Below, one piece after another: positions 10,511 to 15,259 of a DNA stretch of 21,507 bases. Positions within the stretch are counted from its first letter, which is position 1; each line of letters opens with the position of its first letter. The position numbers and the translations under genes are program-made. The DNA is from a virus: the IMG/VR virus record IMGVR_UViG_3300046500_000370, positions 1 to 21,507 of that record; one strand, written 5' to 3'. The notes under the pieces were generated by a model. That model had not been told where the DNA came from and did no database searches. It saw only the letters and a list, made by a program, of their open reading frames with translations.

Positions 10511-11001
10511 CAGAAGTCCAGTACGTTCGTGTCGACCGTGGCGAACGTCGCCAGGCGCTGCAGCAGCGCGTGCGAGCCGGCGCCGTACGCGTTGTACACG
10601 TCGACCATCCCCGCAGCGTCTGCCGCCGACATCTCGTACACCTTGTTCTCCGCCTCCACCACGAACGACACGACCATCGCGATACCGCCCGTGCGCGCTG
10701 CTGAATACGATCCCGGCATAATGTTGACGGGGTGCGGCTCCGTGCCGAAGCCGGAATCGAGCCGCATGTCGAACGTAATCGCGCCCTTCTTGATGATGTG
10801 GTGGTAGAAGGCCGTCCACACCGAGAACTTGAGCGCGTCCAGGATGAGGGTTACCTGGTAGCGCTGCGTCCCGCGGTCCCAGTCAAGGCCATACCGCGCC
10901 GCGCCGCCCGCGACCTCGGTCCGCAGCACGCCGCCCGGGTCGTCCATTGAATAGGCGGCCACGGTCGGCGTGAAGCCGTTCGGCATTACAGGGTTCGGCA
11001 T
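10510..11001 (-). CDS. Minor tail protein (gpM-like position)
   Basis: A 163-residue beta-rich protein. Its N-terminal half has features of small distal-tail proteins (GLDWDRGTQRYQVTLILDAL, then FYHHIIKKGAITFDMRLDSG). The second half includes a helix (AADAAGMVDVYNAYGAG). It is located directly after the tape measure and before DUF1833, the slot of lambda gpM, where a distal tail protein joins tube to tip. Its ATG overlaps the tape measure TAA. No enzyme motif is present. I judge it structural with good confidence but the specific homology is uncertain. Confidence 0.7.
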   Translation of the reverse strand: MPNPVMPNGFTPTVAAYSMDDPGGVLRTEVAGGAARYGLDWDRGTQRYQVTLILDALKFSVWTAFYHHIIKKGAITFDMRLDSGFGTEPHPVNIMPGSYSAARTGGIAMVVSFVVEAENKVYEMSAADAAGMVDVYNAYGAGSHALLQRLATFATVDTNVLDF

Positions 11002-13499
11002 TATCGAGTCCTCGACACGTTCAGGTTACGGCCCATGGCACGCGACGTTCGACTGTTCGGATCGGCCAGCGAGGATGCCGTAGCGTTCACAGCCTCCTCG
11101 ATGATCAGCGCCCGCTCGGTATCCGAAATTCGCTGCTCGGTCACGTTCCCGATCGGTGAGCGCGTGTTGTTCACGATGGTCAGCTTGAGGTCGCCGCCGG
11201 CGCCGCCGATCTTGTGGTTCGGGATGATGGTGCCGTGGGTTGGCGGCCGGAAGATCTCCGGCCCCTTCTCGCCAACCAGAAACGCGCCGCCATCCCACAC
11301 CGAGCCGCCTTTCTCACGCTGGCCAGCGATGGCCATGCCGGCCACCATGCCGGCGCTTGCGTAGCCAGTCACCCTGATCATGGTCGCCATTGGAATGCCA
11401 AAGATGCCGAGCTGGGCGCCTGCCTTCGCTGCGGCCACCTCGGTATTCAGGATGATTTCGGCAACGGCTATCGCCTTGTTCGCCAGGAACGCCGCCTTGG
11501 CAAGTGCCGACTGCTCCCTCCCGGCCGACTTCAACAGGTTGTAGAGCTGGTCCGCGGTATCGCCAGCCATTGCAAGCGATTGCTGGCGGTTTGCTGCCTC
11601 CATTTCCGTGATCGCGGCAACGTGGCGCTCTTTCTCGCGCTCGATGGCAAGATCGGCTTCGACGGTGTTTGCAAGCTCCTCATCGCGATACGCCTGCAAA
11701 TCCTTGAGCCGGTTCGCATGCTCCTCATTCTCCTTCTCCTGAGGCGTCTTCAGGGAGTCCGCGAGCTGCTTGCCGATACCCTGGGTCGTGGCGTGATTGG
11801 CCTTCGCCGCGTGGTCTGCGGCATCCTTCCGGTACTGCGCGATCGACGCCTCGGTGATCGTGCCCTTCTCTTTCGCCTGGCGAATCTTCTCCTCGATGTC
11901 CAGCTCGAGGCGGCGCGCCTCGGTCAGCTTGGCGATTTCAAGTGCCGACTTCCCGTACAGGTCGTTGTTGAACCTCATCTGGCTCTCGGCCAGGTCCTGC
12001 TCGCGGTTCCAATCCTGCATGGCCTTGTTCAGGCCAGACTGCGCGGCTGACATGCTGAGCGTTTGCATCCCCAGCGCCCGGGTCGCATCGGCGCGAGCCT
12101 TGTCCCTCAGCGCAATCTTCTCGTTGAGCTGGTTCGTGATCGCAGCCTTATCAGCTTCCTTGACCGCGACGGCATGCGCCTTTTGCAAAGCCGAGATTTC
12201 CGCGTCATACGCACGTACCGCGGCATCGCGCGCCTGCTCGATCGACGCGATCTTGTACTGTGCATACGTCTGCACATCGACGAGGTCCTGATTGCGCAGC
12301 TCCTGCATGAAATTATCGTGGAAGGCCGCTGTGTCGCGTTCCTGCGCGTAGGCCGCTTCGAACGCCTTCAGCTGGCCCTCGAGCAGCGCCTTGGCTGGGT
12401 CGTCGCCCTTGGCGCGCAACGTCGGTGCGCGCGATTTCGGCTTGTTGGCGTCATCCCCCGCGGCCGGTTTCTCGGCAGCCTTTGGGGTGCGGTCTAGGAC
12501 GTTGGCGATGAACGCATCGTGTTCCTTGCGCGCCTTCTCAGCGTCCGCCTTCATGGCCTCGCTGATCGCGTTGAATCCCTTCATGTCACCATGGGCCAGG
12601 CGCTCGATTTGCGCGGCAATTCCCCCGATTTCGGTACCGACGGCCTTGAAGGTATAGCCGACTTCCGACCCGACGATTACGAACGTCTCGAGCACCGTCC
12701 GGACCACGTCGCCGGCCAATGAAAACTTATCGGAATTCTCGGCCGCGCCCAGCATTTCATCCCCGACGGTCTGCAGCACAGGCAGTACCGCCGAGGAGAT
12801 CGTGTTGTAAAAACCTTTCTGCTGGACCGTCAGCTTGCCCATCGTGTCGTTGAAGTTGTCCGACGCGTTGGCCAGTTCTTCGGTCACACCGCTGTACTGC
12901 TTCGCATAGGCGATGTTTTCCCGCAGCGCGTCGCCGCCATCGTTGAGCAGCGGGATCATGTCGGCGCCGGCCTTACCGAAGATCCGGAGCGCGATCGCTG
13001 TCTTCTCCGGCCCGTCAGCGTAGTCCTTGAACTTGTCCGCTACTTCGGCAATAACAACGTCCGCAGTCTTCAGGTTACCTGCCGCATCACGCACGTTGAT
13101 GCCCAGCTTGGAAAAGGCCTCGCCCGTGTCCTTGTTGCCACCAGCTGCTTCGGCAATGGACTTGTTCACCTTGCCGGCCGCTGCGACCACGCTCTCGAGG
13201 TCCCCGCCCGCCTGGCCGGCGGCGAAGCCCAGGCCATTCAGCGTCTCGACAGCGACGCCCGTCTTCTGAGACATGTCGCGCAGATGGTCGGCCGCGTCGA
13301 TAGAATCCTTCACGAGGACAGCGAAGGCACCGACCGACACGCCAACACCGAGGAATTCGAGTGCTTTCTTCCCGGTCTCGATCGCGCCCTCGACACGCTT
13401 CATGGCATCCTCGGTGCTTTTCCCCGACTTCTGCATATCGCTGAGGTATTTCGCGATGTTCGCCTCGAGCGTGACGACCAAAGAGCCCAGATTTGCCAT
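11001..13499 (-). CDS. Tape measure protein
   Basis: An 832-residue tail length determinant. The N-terminus MANLGSLVVTLEANIAKYLSD is typical, followed by a hydrophobic patch (LEFLGVGVSVGAFAVLV). A long alpha-helical, Ala/Lys/Glu-rich coiled-coil middle (about 380-690) is followed by a hydrophobic segment near the end (AEIILNTEVAAAKAGAQLGI). The C-terminal GG-x-W-x-GG-x-FLVGEKGPEIF motif occurs in many tape measures. I chose ATG 13499, preceded by GAGGCAGG, over ATG 13511, which directly abuts the terminator T-run and so has no room for a ribosome site. ATG 13724 lies inside the upstream gene in another frame. Length fits a tail of medium size. It is translated next to its gpG/gpGT chaperones as expected. 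Confidence 0.93.
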   Translation of the reverse strand: MANLGSLVVTLEANIAKYLSDMQKSGKSTEDAMKRVEGAIETGKKALEFLGVGVSVGAFAVLVKDSIDAADHLRDMSQKTGVAVETLNGLGFAAGQAGGDLESVVAAAGKVNKSIAEAAGGNKDTGEAFSKLGINVRDAAGNLKTADVVIAEVADKFKDYADGPEKTAIALRIFGKAGADMIPLLNDGGDALRENIAYAKQYSGVTEELANASDNFNDTMGKLTVQQKGFYNTISSAVLPVLQTVGDEMLGAAENSDKFSLAGDVVRTVLETFVIVGSEVGYTFKAVGTEIGGIAAQIERLAHGDMKGFNAISEAMKADAEKARKEHDAFIANVLDRTPKAAEKPAAGDDANKPKSRAPTLRAKGDDPAKALLEGQLKAFEAAYAQERDTAAFHDNFMQELRNQDLVDVQTYAQYKIASIEQARDAAVRAYDAEISALQKAHAVAVKEADKAAITNQLNEKIALRDKARADATRALGMQTLSMSAAQSGLNKAMQDWNREQDLAESQMRFNNDLYGKSALEIAKLTEARRLELDIEEKIRQAKEKGTITEASIAQYRKDAADHAAKANHATTQGIGKQLADSLKTPQEKENEEHANRLKDLQAYRDEELANTVEADLAIEREKERHVAAITEMEAANRQQSLAMAGDTADQLYNLLKSAGREQSALAKAAFLANKAIAVAEIILNTEVAAAKAGAQLGIFGIPMATMIRVTGYASAGMVAGMAIAGQREKGGSVWDGGAFLVGEKGPEIFRPPTHGTIIPNHKIGGAGGDLKLTIVNNTRSPIGNVTEQRISDTERALIIEEAVNATASSLADPNSRTSRAMGRNLNVSRTR

Positions 13500-13511
13500 T
13501 GCCTGCCTCAT

Positions 13512-13537
13512 AAAAAAAGCTCGCCGTAGCGAGCTTT
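13512..13537 (-). terminator. Intrinsic terminator before the tape measure gene
   Basis: Read leftward, AAAGCTCGC-TACG-GCGAGCTTT is a perfect 9-bp stem, continuing in a run of T (complement of 13512-13518). It lies between the zinc-ribbon gene and the tape measure ATG, which follows 12 nt after the T-run. Confidence 0.88.
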
Positions 13538-13558
13538 GTATTGTTTGAACGGTTCGCG

Positions 13559-13882
13559 CTACTTGCGCAGAACGTACCGCCTGAATGCCTGGCCGAGCAT
13601 TTTGCCCGTTGCCCCCGCATTCGACTTCCGGACGGGCGTCGCAGGCATATGCGGCTGATGCTGCTGCGCCAGCGTGCGCCCAACTGGTGAGTTGACCGGC
13701 ACGAGCGCCACCGAGCCGCAGCATGCACAGGCGTCATACCGCGACGACAGGCGCCAGAATGAATAGATTAGCCCAGGCACGAGAAAACAAAGCCAAAGGA
13801 TCAGCTCGATCATTGTCGACCCCTTGGTGATTCGGGCTGGCTCCCCCGTCGTGCCGCAATCCTTGCAAACCATGTCGCTCAT
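13559..13882 (-). CDS. Membrane protein with split zinc-ribbon, unknown function
   Basis: A 107-residue protein with CKDC (Cys6, Cys9) near the N-terminus, one membrane segment (IELILWLCFLVPGLIYSFW, about 25-43) and a second CACC knuckle (Cys52 and Cys55). The segment VPVNSPVGRTL follows and a basic tail closes the protein (GKMLGQAFRRYVLRK). The two CxxC pairs could bind one zinc across the membrane helix or hairpin. Similar small zinc-ribbon membrane proteins occur uncharacterised in bacteria and phages. GGGAG lies before ATG 13885 and ATG 13882; I prefer 13882 for spacing. It sits in the tail operon between gpGT and the tape measure, where a virion assembly gene would be expected, so it may be an inserted moron acting on the host envelope. 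Confidence 0.7.
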   Translation of the reverse strand: MSDMVCKDCGTTGEPARITKGSTMIELILWLCFLVPGLIYSFWRLSSRYDACACCGSVALVPVNSPVGRTLAQQHQPHMPATPVRKSNAGATGKMLGQAFRRYVLRK

Positions 13883-13920
13883 CATTACTCCCAAATTGTG
13901 GTTATGGAGCAATAATGCCA

Positions 13921-14280
13921 CTATCGCGGCGGCATGCCAAACATCGCCGCCCGGATCAGGTTGGACTGTGCGACCGGATCCTCGAGCAGCGTTGGCTCTT
14001 CCTCGTCTGCCTCCGTCTGGCTCAGATCACCCCAGCTGATGAAGTCGGCGGCCCTGTATGGCTCCGGCCTCGCTTCAGTGTTCCGGTTGATGTTCGCCAG
14101 GAGCGCTGCAGCAGTGCCGTGCCGCATATCGCCGACCTGGTCACCGAACGGCTCGAGCTCGTAATAAGCCTGCCATTCGGTGAATTCGGCCGAGCTGATC
14201 TCAAGCTGCGCCTGTCGTACGCTCTTGCCTAGCTCTTTGGCGAGCCGGAACCAGAATCTCCGCTCTGGCCGCTCGCGGAG
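13921..14280 (-). CDS. Tail assembly chaperone T extension (gpGT, made by -1 frameshift from gpG)
   Basis: This frame has no good start of its own but is coding from the slip site onward: RFWFRLAKELGKSVRQAQLE, then EFTEWQAYYELEPFGDQVGD, a middle part, and a C-terminal MFGMPPR. The pattern matches DUF4035-type phage proteins that are the T half of gpGT. After slippage at 14286-14280 the ribosome enters at CTC (14280-14278) and reads 119 residues to TAG 13921. The fusion is about 234 residues (115 from gpG). In lambda, gpG and gpGT chaperone the tape measure while the tube assembles, and their ratio is critical. The next downstream structural gene is indeed the tape measure. Confidence 0.85.
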   Translation of the reverse strand, partial: LRERPERRFWFRLAKELGKSVRQAQLEISSAEFTEWQAYYELEPFGDQVGDMRHGTAAALLANINRNTEARPEPYRAADFISWGDLSQTEADEEEPTLLEDPVAQSNLIRAAMFGMPPR

Positions 14281-14624
14281 TTTTTTGCGGCATCCTCGAC
14301 CGCGACCGCACCCAAGCCGTTAAGACGCATGGCGACGGCCGCCGGCGCGTCGAGCGATGCTGCACTCTTCGCCTGCAGGGCCTCCATGTCGTCTATCGAG
14401 AACAAGCGCGCCCCGCTTTCGTCGATGCAGGTTGCGGCCAGCAGCGCTGCCGAGAACTTGCTGACCGGGACGTTTCCCTCGGCGGCGATGGTCGCACGAA
14501 ACTCGTCGCGTTCGACGCCGTTCATCACGCGCACACGTACCGTGCCGCCCCATTGCGGCACGGGCACGTCCTCGTGCTTCAGGTCGCTGGCGCCGAGGAT
14601 TGCCGATTTCGTCAACAGTCCCAT
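14229..14624 (-). CDS. Tail assembly chaperone gpG
   Basis: A 131-residue protein beginning MGLLTKSAILGASDLKHEDV, with a beta-rich first half (WGGTVRVRVMNGVERDEF) and a helical second half including AALLAATCIDESGARLFS. The last stretch after the slip site is a Ser/Gly-rich tail (NSASGQSGDSGSGSPKS), which is the default end when no frameshift occurs. It follows the tail tube gene by 2 nt, with GGAG before its ATG inside that gene. As in lambda it should bind the tape measure and prevent premature tube polymerisation. Most ribosomes should make this form, a minority the longer gpGT. Confidence 0.85.
   Translation of the reverse strand: MGLLTKSAILGASDLKHEDVPVPQWGGTVRVRVMNGVERDEFRATIAAEGNVPVSKFSAALLAATCIDESGARLFSIDDMEALQAKSAASLDAPAAVAMRLNGLGAVAVEDAAKNSASGQSGDSGSGSPKS
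14240..14286 (-). promoter_or_regulatory. Programmed -1 ribosomal frameshift signal (gpG to gpGT)
   Basis: The heptamer A-AAA-AAC (14286-14280) stands in the gpG frame exactly as X-XXY-YYZ, with AAA and AAC as the slipping codons. Three nt later, an extended imperfect stem-loop begins: GCGAGC (14276-14271) with GCTCGC (14245-14240), GG with CC, and CCAGA (14268-14264) with TCTGG (14255-14251). That is 13 pairs interrupted by one bulged G and a TT. An alternative shorter hairpin, TCCGC with GCGGA, is also possible. The zero frame stops at 14229; the -1 frame continues to 13921. Confidence 0.85.
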
Positions 14625-14626
14625 GA

Positions 14627-15259
14627 TCAGCTCCAGACCACAGGACCGCTGATCTTGGTGTCGACCTTGCCCTTGAGGAGAGCATTGACGCCGCCCGAGC
14701 TGGGGATCGATTTCACCAAGGTATTGAAGCTGGCCACGCTGCCGTCCGGCAGGGACAGCTTCATGCTAGCCACGTCGCCGCTGGTACGTGCGGCGCGCAG
14801 GGCGATCTGGCCGTTGTCGTCCTTGAGGACCTTCACCTCAAAGCCGAACTTGCCCTCGTCGCGCAGCCCGCTGATGTATTCCATCGCGGTGCTGTCCAGG
14901 TCAGTCGAGTCGATGTCGCTCGCTGCCCCGTCGAAGCCATCGAACGACAGCAGGCCATTGATCTTGGTATAGGCAGACGGGGTAGCGGTTCCGCCGTTGT
15001 CGTAGACCAGGCCGGTAGTATCGACATCGAGGAGCGCATAGGTGTTGGCCGTCACGTTCGAGACGACGTGGGACTTGCCGTTCAGGACCGCCATCGTGCC
15101 GACGATATCGGCGAGAGCGGCAACGGTGCCGTTAGTCAGGCCATGGCCCGCGCTTGTCACGATCGCGGGAAACCCCGCAGAAATTCCCGTGATAGCCTTC
15201 GCGCCGCCGGCCCCGGTGGCAATCTCCAGGGTGCTGCCTTGTGCAGAAATTCCGCTCAT
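14627..15259 (-). CDS. Major tail tube protein with inserted beta domain
   Basis: A 210-residue tube subunit of a long non-contractile tail. The core appears in two parts: residues 1-20, and about 97 onward, with YTKINGLLSFDGFDGAASDI, then DSTAMEYISGLRDEGKFGFE, then LPDGSVASFNTLVKSIP. These features are typical of lambda gpV/TP901-1-like tail tubes. Between them, about residues 22-95 (FPAIVTSAGHGLTNGTVAAL, then VGTMAVLNGKSHVVSNV, then LVYDNGGTATP) form a small beta module. It is like the HGL-x-x-G ... GM-x-x-LNG ... DTTG-x-x-Y-x-x-GGT repeat often annotated as an E1 FCCH-like domain in virion proteins, and it probably decorates the tube surface. GAGAGG precedes ATG 15259. It is one of the two most abundant virion proteins. 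Confidence 0.88.
   Translation of the reverse strand: MSGISAQGSTLEIATGAGGAKAITGISAGFPAIVTSAGHGLTNGTVAALADIVGTMAVLNGKSHVVSNVTANTYALLDVDTTGLVYDNGGTATPSAYTKINGLLSFDGFDGAASDIDSTDLDSTAMEYISGLRDEGKFGFEVKVLKDDNGQIALRAARTSGDVASMKLSLPDGSVASFNTLVKSIPSSGGVNALLKGKVDTKISGPVVWS

Follow-up and report, generated by a model that had tools for sequence, protein, structure and literature searches.

The window, which spans all 21,507 bases of its virus record, carries tail genes on its minus strand in the order tail tube, G, T, one cargo ORF and tape measure, as read from the ORF list together with Pfam and PHROG matches (Table 1). The G and T frames lie between the tail tube and tape measure genes, as expected of lambda-type chaperones. 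By its PHROG match the G half is a member of a tail assembly chaperone family, and it gave no match in Pfam or NCBIfam. The T half lies in the –1 frame, where the Phage_tail_T domain scored 70.7 bits against a cut-off of 25.9 and covers T residues 29–99. The initial annotation had described this frame as open for 119 codons up to a stop at 13921, with a protein pattern typical of T, and this description holds. The neighbouring tape measure gene probably has its true start near 13500. Scanning the window for Rfam families and tRNAs returned no matches.

Table 1. Features of the tail chaperone region, in window coordinates
Feature	Position	Strand	Basis
Lambda-like major tail (tube) protein, upstream neighbour	14627..15259	-	PF16460 E 2.6e-10; phrog_158
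gpG-like tail assembly chaperone ORF, 131 aa, frame 0	14229..14624	-	PHROG 344 'tail assembly chaperone' (phrog_344) E 4.1e-26
Shine-Dalgarno-like GAGG, candidate 5' stimulator, 7 nt 5' of heptamer	14294..14297	-	Sequence and relatives
Slippery heptamer A_AAA_AAC	14280-14286	-	Phase 2 relative to gpG start; conserved at relatives' junctions
T extension, -1 frame, 119 codons from the re-read C at 14280, plus stop	13921..14280	-	Pfam PF06223 Phage_tail_T E 1.4e-19
Imperfect stem-loop, 3 nt after heptamer	14240..14276	-	Present in sequence; role unsupported
Outer arms GCGAGC / GCTCGC	14276-14271 / 14245-14240	-	Read in sequence
Inner arms CCAGA / TCTGG	14268-14264 / 14255-14251	-	Read in sequence
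Moron-like unit between T and tape measure	13516-13940	-	ORF, promoter-like site and terminator-like hairpin
Extended -10 promoter-like site	13940-13912	-	
Small ORF, zinc-ribbon-like CxxC pairs flanking a hydrophobic stretch	13559 to about 13880	-	By eye
Nine-pair terminator-like hairpin	13537-13516	-	
Tape measure protein	11001..13724 (listed ORF)	-	Numerous PHROG tape-measure matches, the majority covering residue 57 onward

The slippery heptamer and its conservation in relatives

Near the 3' end of G, a heptamer of the X_XXY_YYZ type is read in frame 0 as GCA AAA AAC, in phase with gpG as had been proposed from the sequence of the window. The string AAAAAAC occurs once in the window, with about one occurrence expected by chance across its whole length; calculated from this count of one, the number expected in phase within the 91-nt overlap is about 0.0014. 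In E. coli, A_AAA_AAC is a low-efficiency heptamer (PMC4066793).

The initial annotation had suggested comparing the heptamer in related phages, and this comparison came out in favour of the frameshift. Scans of viral contigs yielded 68 loci with the T query and 79 with the G query, and a scan of genome contigs added 5 (Massilia, Paraburkholderia, Oxalobacter and two metagenome-assembled bins). Both halves stood in the –1 relation in 99 of 99 nonredundant loci, and 97 of these carried A_AAA_AAC, the remaining two being GGGAAAC and GGGAAAA. With the genome and named-phage loci included, there were 116 unique junctions: AAAAAAC in 106, GGGAAAC in 5, AAAAAAG in 2, and GGGAAAA, AAAAAAA and GGGTTTC in one each. 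All ten junctions other than A_AAA_AAC also fit X_XXY_YYZ, and the heptamer was found at the exact aligned base in 109 junctions and 3 nt away in 7. These junctions derive from 157 of the 162 loci examined. The five loci without a heptamer comprise one whose contig begins inside the site (L051), three with no T match (L093, L117 and L118) and one (L161) in which no X_XXY_YYZ heptamer was found within 30 nt of the expected place. In a further set of 35 family-model loci from other genomes, AAAAAAC lay within 3 nt of the aligned place in 27; L188 had no heptamer, no hit was obtained for L186, and only other or displaced candidates were present in L185, L187 and L192; all five are distant loci where the alignment is uncertain. 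When both halves were searched by tblastn, the end of the G match and the start of the T match fell on the same base in seven Streptomyces phages (Gibson, Rooney, Yara, PHTowN, Lizz, ShakeNBake and Dubu).

The T frame could instead be translated independently, from the ATG at 14127 or by reinitiation, and in several deposited phages T is indeed annotated with an internal start codon. In the window, a stop at 14320-14322 closes the T frame on its upstream side, and between this stop and 14127 the frame holds no ATG, GTG or TTG; the ATG is therefore its first start codon, and the warning that automatic annotation would call T an orphan ORF at 13921-14127 is correct. However, a protein begun at this ATG would lose the first 51 residues of T, and with them the conserved RPERRFWFRLA segment and some of the Pfam match, and independent initiation would leave the conservation of the heptamer unexplained. 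Relatives were compared through 73 representatives under 90% identity, drawn from 112 T frames of at least 60 codons, which also served for the folding and codon analyses below. In 54 of the 73, the T frame has no ATG, GTG or TTG from the upstream stop to T codon 8, and in the remaining representatives no Shine-Dalgarno (SD) tetramer precedes the T-frame starts. Given the startless T frame in the window and in these 54 representatives, independent initiation was rejected as extremely improbable.

Slippage by the polymerase on the A run, rather than by the ribosome, would also join the two frames, and in some relatives the C is indeed preceded by at least seven As. Against this, the run in the window is six As, whereas transcriptional slippage sites are described as An with n > 7 in PMC3711429, and distant relatives have G_GGA_AAC at the same place, with no long homopolymer. 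On these two grounds transcriptional slippage was likewise set aside, as a very improbable account.

We conclude, with a probability of about 0.95, that the locus would encode a siphophage gpG/gpGT tail assembly chaperone, with gpGT arising by –1 slippage on A_AAA_AAC. Programmed –1 frameshifting giving gpG and gpGT is very likely because of the in-phase heptamer, the T family match, the startless T frame and the conservation in relatives, all of which are features of sequence. We infer the slippage itself, its efficiency and, from phage lambda, the chaperone function. Most ribosomes would produce gpG, and a minority would slip back one base on the heptamer, so that GCA AAA AAC is re-read as AAA AAA followed by CUC, to give gpGT. 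The T part of gpGT would be expected to bring the tail tube protein to a complex of the tape measure protein and gpG. In 19 of the 73 representatives (e.g., L052, L055, L062, L112 and L150) a frame-0 stop immediately follows the heptamer, and gpG therefore ends at the slip site; in the others gpG extends up to 23 codons beyond it, mostly 12, 16 or 20.

Candidate stimulators on either side of the heptamer

The initial annotation had called the signal complete, with an unusual nested stem as its stimulator. The stem itself is present, with both pairs of nested arms and a 3-nt spacer, and slippage might depend on it, or on a pseudoknot formed by CUCCGC/GCGGAG together with CCAGA/UCUGG. The 50 nt 3' of the heptamer fold into a 14-pair hairpin of –19.3 kcal/mol (z –0.96 relative to dinucleotide shuffles), and all five inner pairs are formed in each of the 28 nearest representatives. 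However, an 81-nt fold that includes the heptamer has a different minimum, CUCCGC/GCGGAG (z 0.41), and relative to synonymous codon shuffles of the T frame there was no excess folding next to the heptamer, the mean z being –0.11 over the 73 representatives and –1.12 for the window. The lowest mean z along T was –0.85, at T codons 31–47, about 30 codons past the slip site, where 33% of the 73 representatives reached p <= 0.05. Four relatives (L144, L104, L057 and L128) have strong folds of their own, with z from –2.4 to –3.4, so RNA structures may matter in a few lineages.

Individual pairs were counted in the 60 of 73 representatives whose T codons 11–13 encode FRL, FRI or FKL. Across these, pairs were formed in 55% of cells for the outer stem, 82% for the inner stem and 52% for the proximal alternative; among the 28 nearest, the figures were 77%, 100% and 71%, and the innermost pair of the outer stem was formed in 8. 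Substitutions in the outer-stem and proximal pairs were one-sided, with no compensatory changes. The inner pairs are no evidence for structure, because their columns hardly vary among the 28 nearest representatives, and reading the sequence shows that four of the five are dictated by the P-E and F-W codons of T. A published E. coli survey considers hairpins potentially relevant in a single phage cluster only (PMC4066793). With no excess folding, broken pairs left uncompensated and a competing fold, no conserved or covarying downstream structure emerged; the stem and the proximal-stem or pseudoknot alternative were rejected, and dependence of slippage on either is unlikely. To call the signal complete is an overstatement, and the claim of an unusual stimulatory stem is removed, as the relatives do not support it.

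The 5' side of the heptamer carries an SD-like GAGG that was absent from the initial annotation. Among 33 offsets scanned in G, the five codons 5' of the heptamer gave the best pairing with the 16S rRNA tail, with a mean of –6.5 kcal/mol and, in this discovery set, a pooled z of about –4 relative to synonymous shuffles. Among 61 junctions sharing less than 80% identity, GAG and GAA were used 35:9 at the third codon upstream, as compared with 65:66 at other positions before a G (Fisher p 7e-4, with relatedness not otherwise corrected). The GAGG ends 7 nt 5' of the heptamer, as it does in the window, in 31 of the 45 junctions that have it. A published SD criterion (PMC4066793), under which the GAGG of the window counts as lying at 8 nt, held in 59 of the 73 representatives and at 975 of 5373 background positions (about 18%).

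Because the SD idea was drawn from inspecting aligned upstream regions, it is post hoc, and fresh loci were compared. Of the 35 family-model loci, 33 had a candidate heptamer, and 26 remained once three with at least 80% identity to the discovery set (L163, L164 and L165), one close to another new locus (L179) and three whose heptamer does not begin with AAA (L185, L187 and L192) were excluded. An SD tetramer was present in 14 of the 26, just above the 50% threshold set beforehand, as compared with 13.6% of background windows, and the same published criterion held in 16 of 26 versus 341 of 1924 background positions. The bias for GAG over GAA was not significant in these loci (16:8 versus 28:32, p 0.15), and part of the SD enrichment may therefore reflect conserved acidic residues.

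Internal SD elements that stimulate –1 frameshifting have been described, with a spacing for –1 sites of 9–14 nt (PMC5009743), longer than the 7 nt in the window; a conserved SD is given for 3 of 13 insertion-sequence and prophage clusters in PMC4066793. In the literature covered, which was seen in part and mostly without subscription papers, we found no account of an internal SD for this chaperone clade. Judged from sequence comparison, the 5' SD-like element would, with moderate confidence, be a better candidate stimulator than the 3' stem. Slippage would probably be set mainly by the heptamer, with the GAGG as a possible stimulator, and the 3' stem-loop would be unnecessary for explaining the conservation. 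More broadly, and only tentatively, since we hold it at below even odds, a large clade of proteobacterial siphophages might use a low-efficiency A_AAA_AAC frameshift tuned by a 5' internal SD-like element and not by 3' RNA structure. Such an element offers a simple idea for how the gpG:gpGT ratio might be set without downstream structure.

The gap between T and the tape measure gene

The distance from T to the tape measure gene, measurable in 65 of the 116 junction loci, is bimodal: 38 loci have at most 54 nt and 27, the window included, have 271–1662 nt. The long-gap loci fall within L002–L147 (e.g., L002, L003, L004, L007, L018, L020, L022, L033 and L095). Their gaps hold small, unrelated ORFs, many of which begin, as judged by eye, with a signal-peptide or lipobox-like sequence and some of which apparently lie on the opposite strand; matches include BamE, DUF4468 and GIY-YIG/NUMOD3 (a homing-type endonuclease), and further cargo includes putative lipoproteins and a zinc-ribbon membrane protein. 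The small ORF of the moron-like unit in the window has a weak Pmp3 match, below cut-off, and a homologue (74%) only in L034/L076, which are the same contig. On this comparison the gap is a variable cargo site, and a role of its cargo in superinfection exclusion is possible.

Relation to known frameshift systems

The initial annotation had remarked that automatic annotation would miss T, which is fair: the joined product is annotated in 3 of the 11 named-phage regions inspected and lacking in the other 8. The present analysis enables correct gpGT annotation here and in the relatives of this phage. A joined CDS for homologous halves is already deposited for Streptomyces phages phiSASD1 and Dubu and for Rhodococcus phage Jflix2. 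These three differ at the slip site: G_GGA_AAC occupies the aligned place in phiSASD1 and Dubu, and in Jflix2 a scripted search gave GGGTTTC, 3 nt away.

E. coli dnaX, an unrelated gene, is similar in combining an A-run heptamer with a 5' SD-like stimulator, and its frame-0 stop directly follows the heptamer, like those of the 19 representatives described above. Its heptamer is A_AAA_AAG with a proven stem-loop according to PMC5009743, which also summarises the –1 frameshift mechanism of lambda gpG/gpGT. The window resembles lambda in its two overlapping frames between the tail tube and tape measure genes, in their –1 relation and in the PF06223 domain. It differs in a weak match of its T to the NCBI lambda-T equivalog model (26.3 bits, where the cut-off is 77.35) and in its A_AAA_AAC heptamer, that of lambda being G_GGA_AAG. 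The system is a textbook lambda-type one, of a kind already known, and this locus is a new member.
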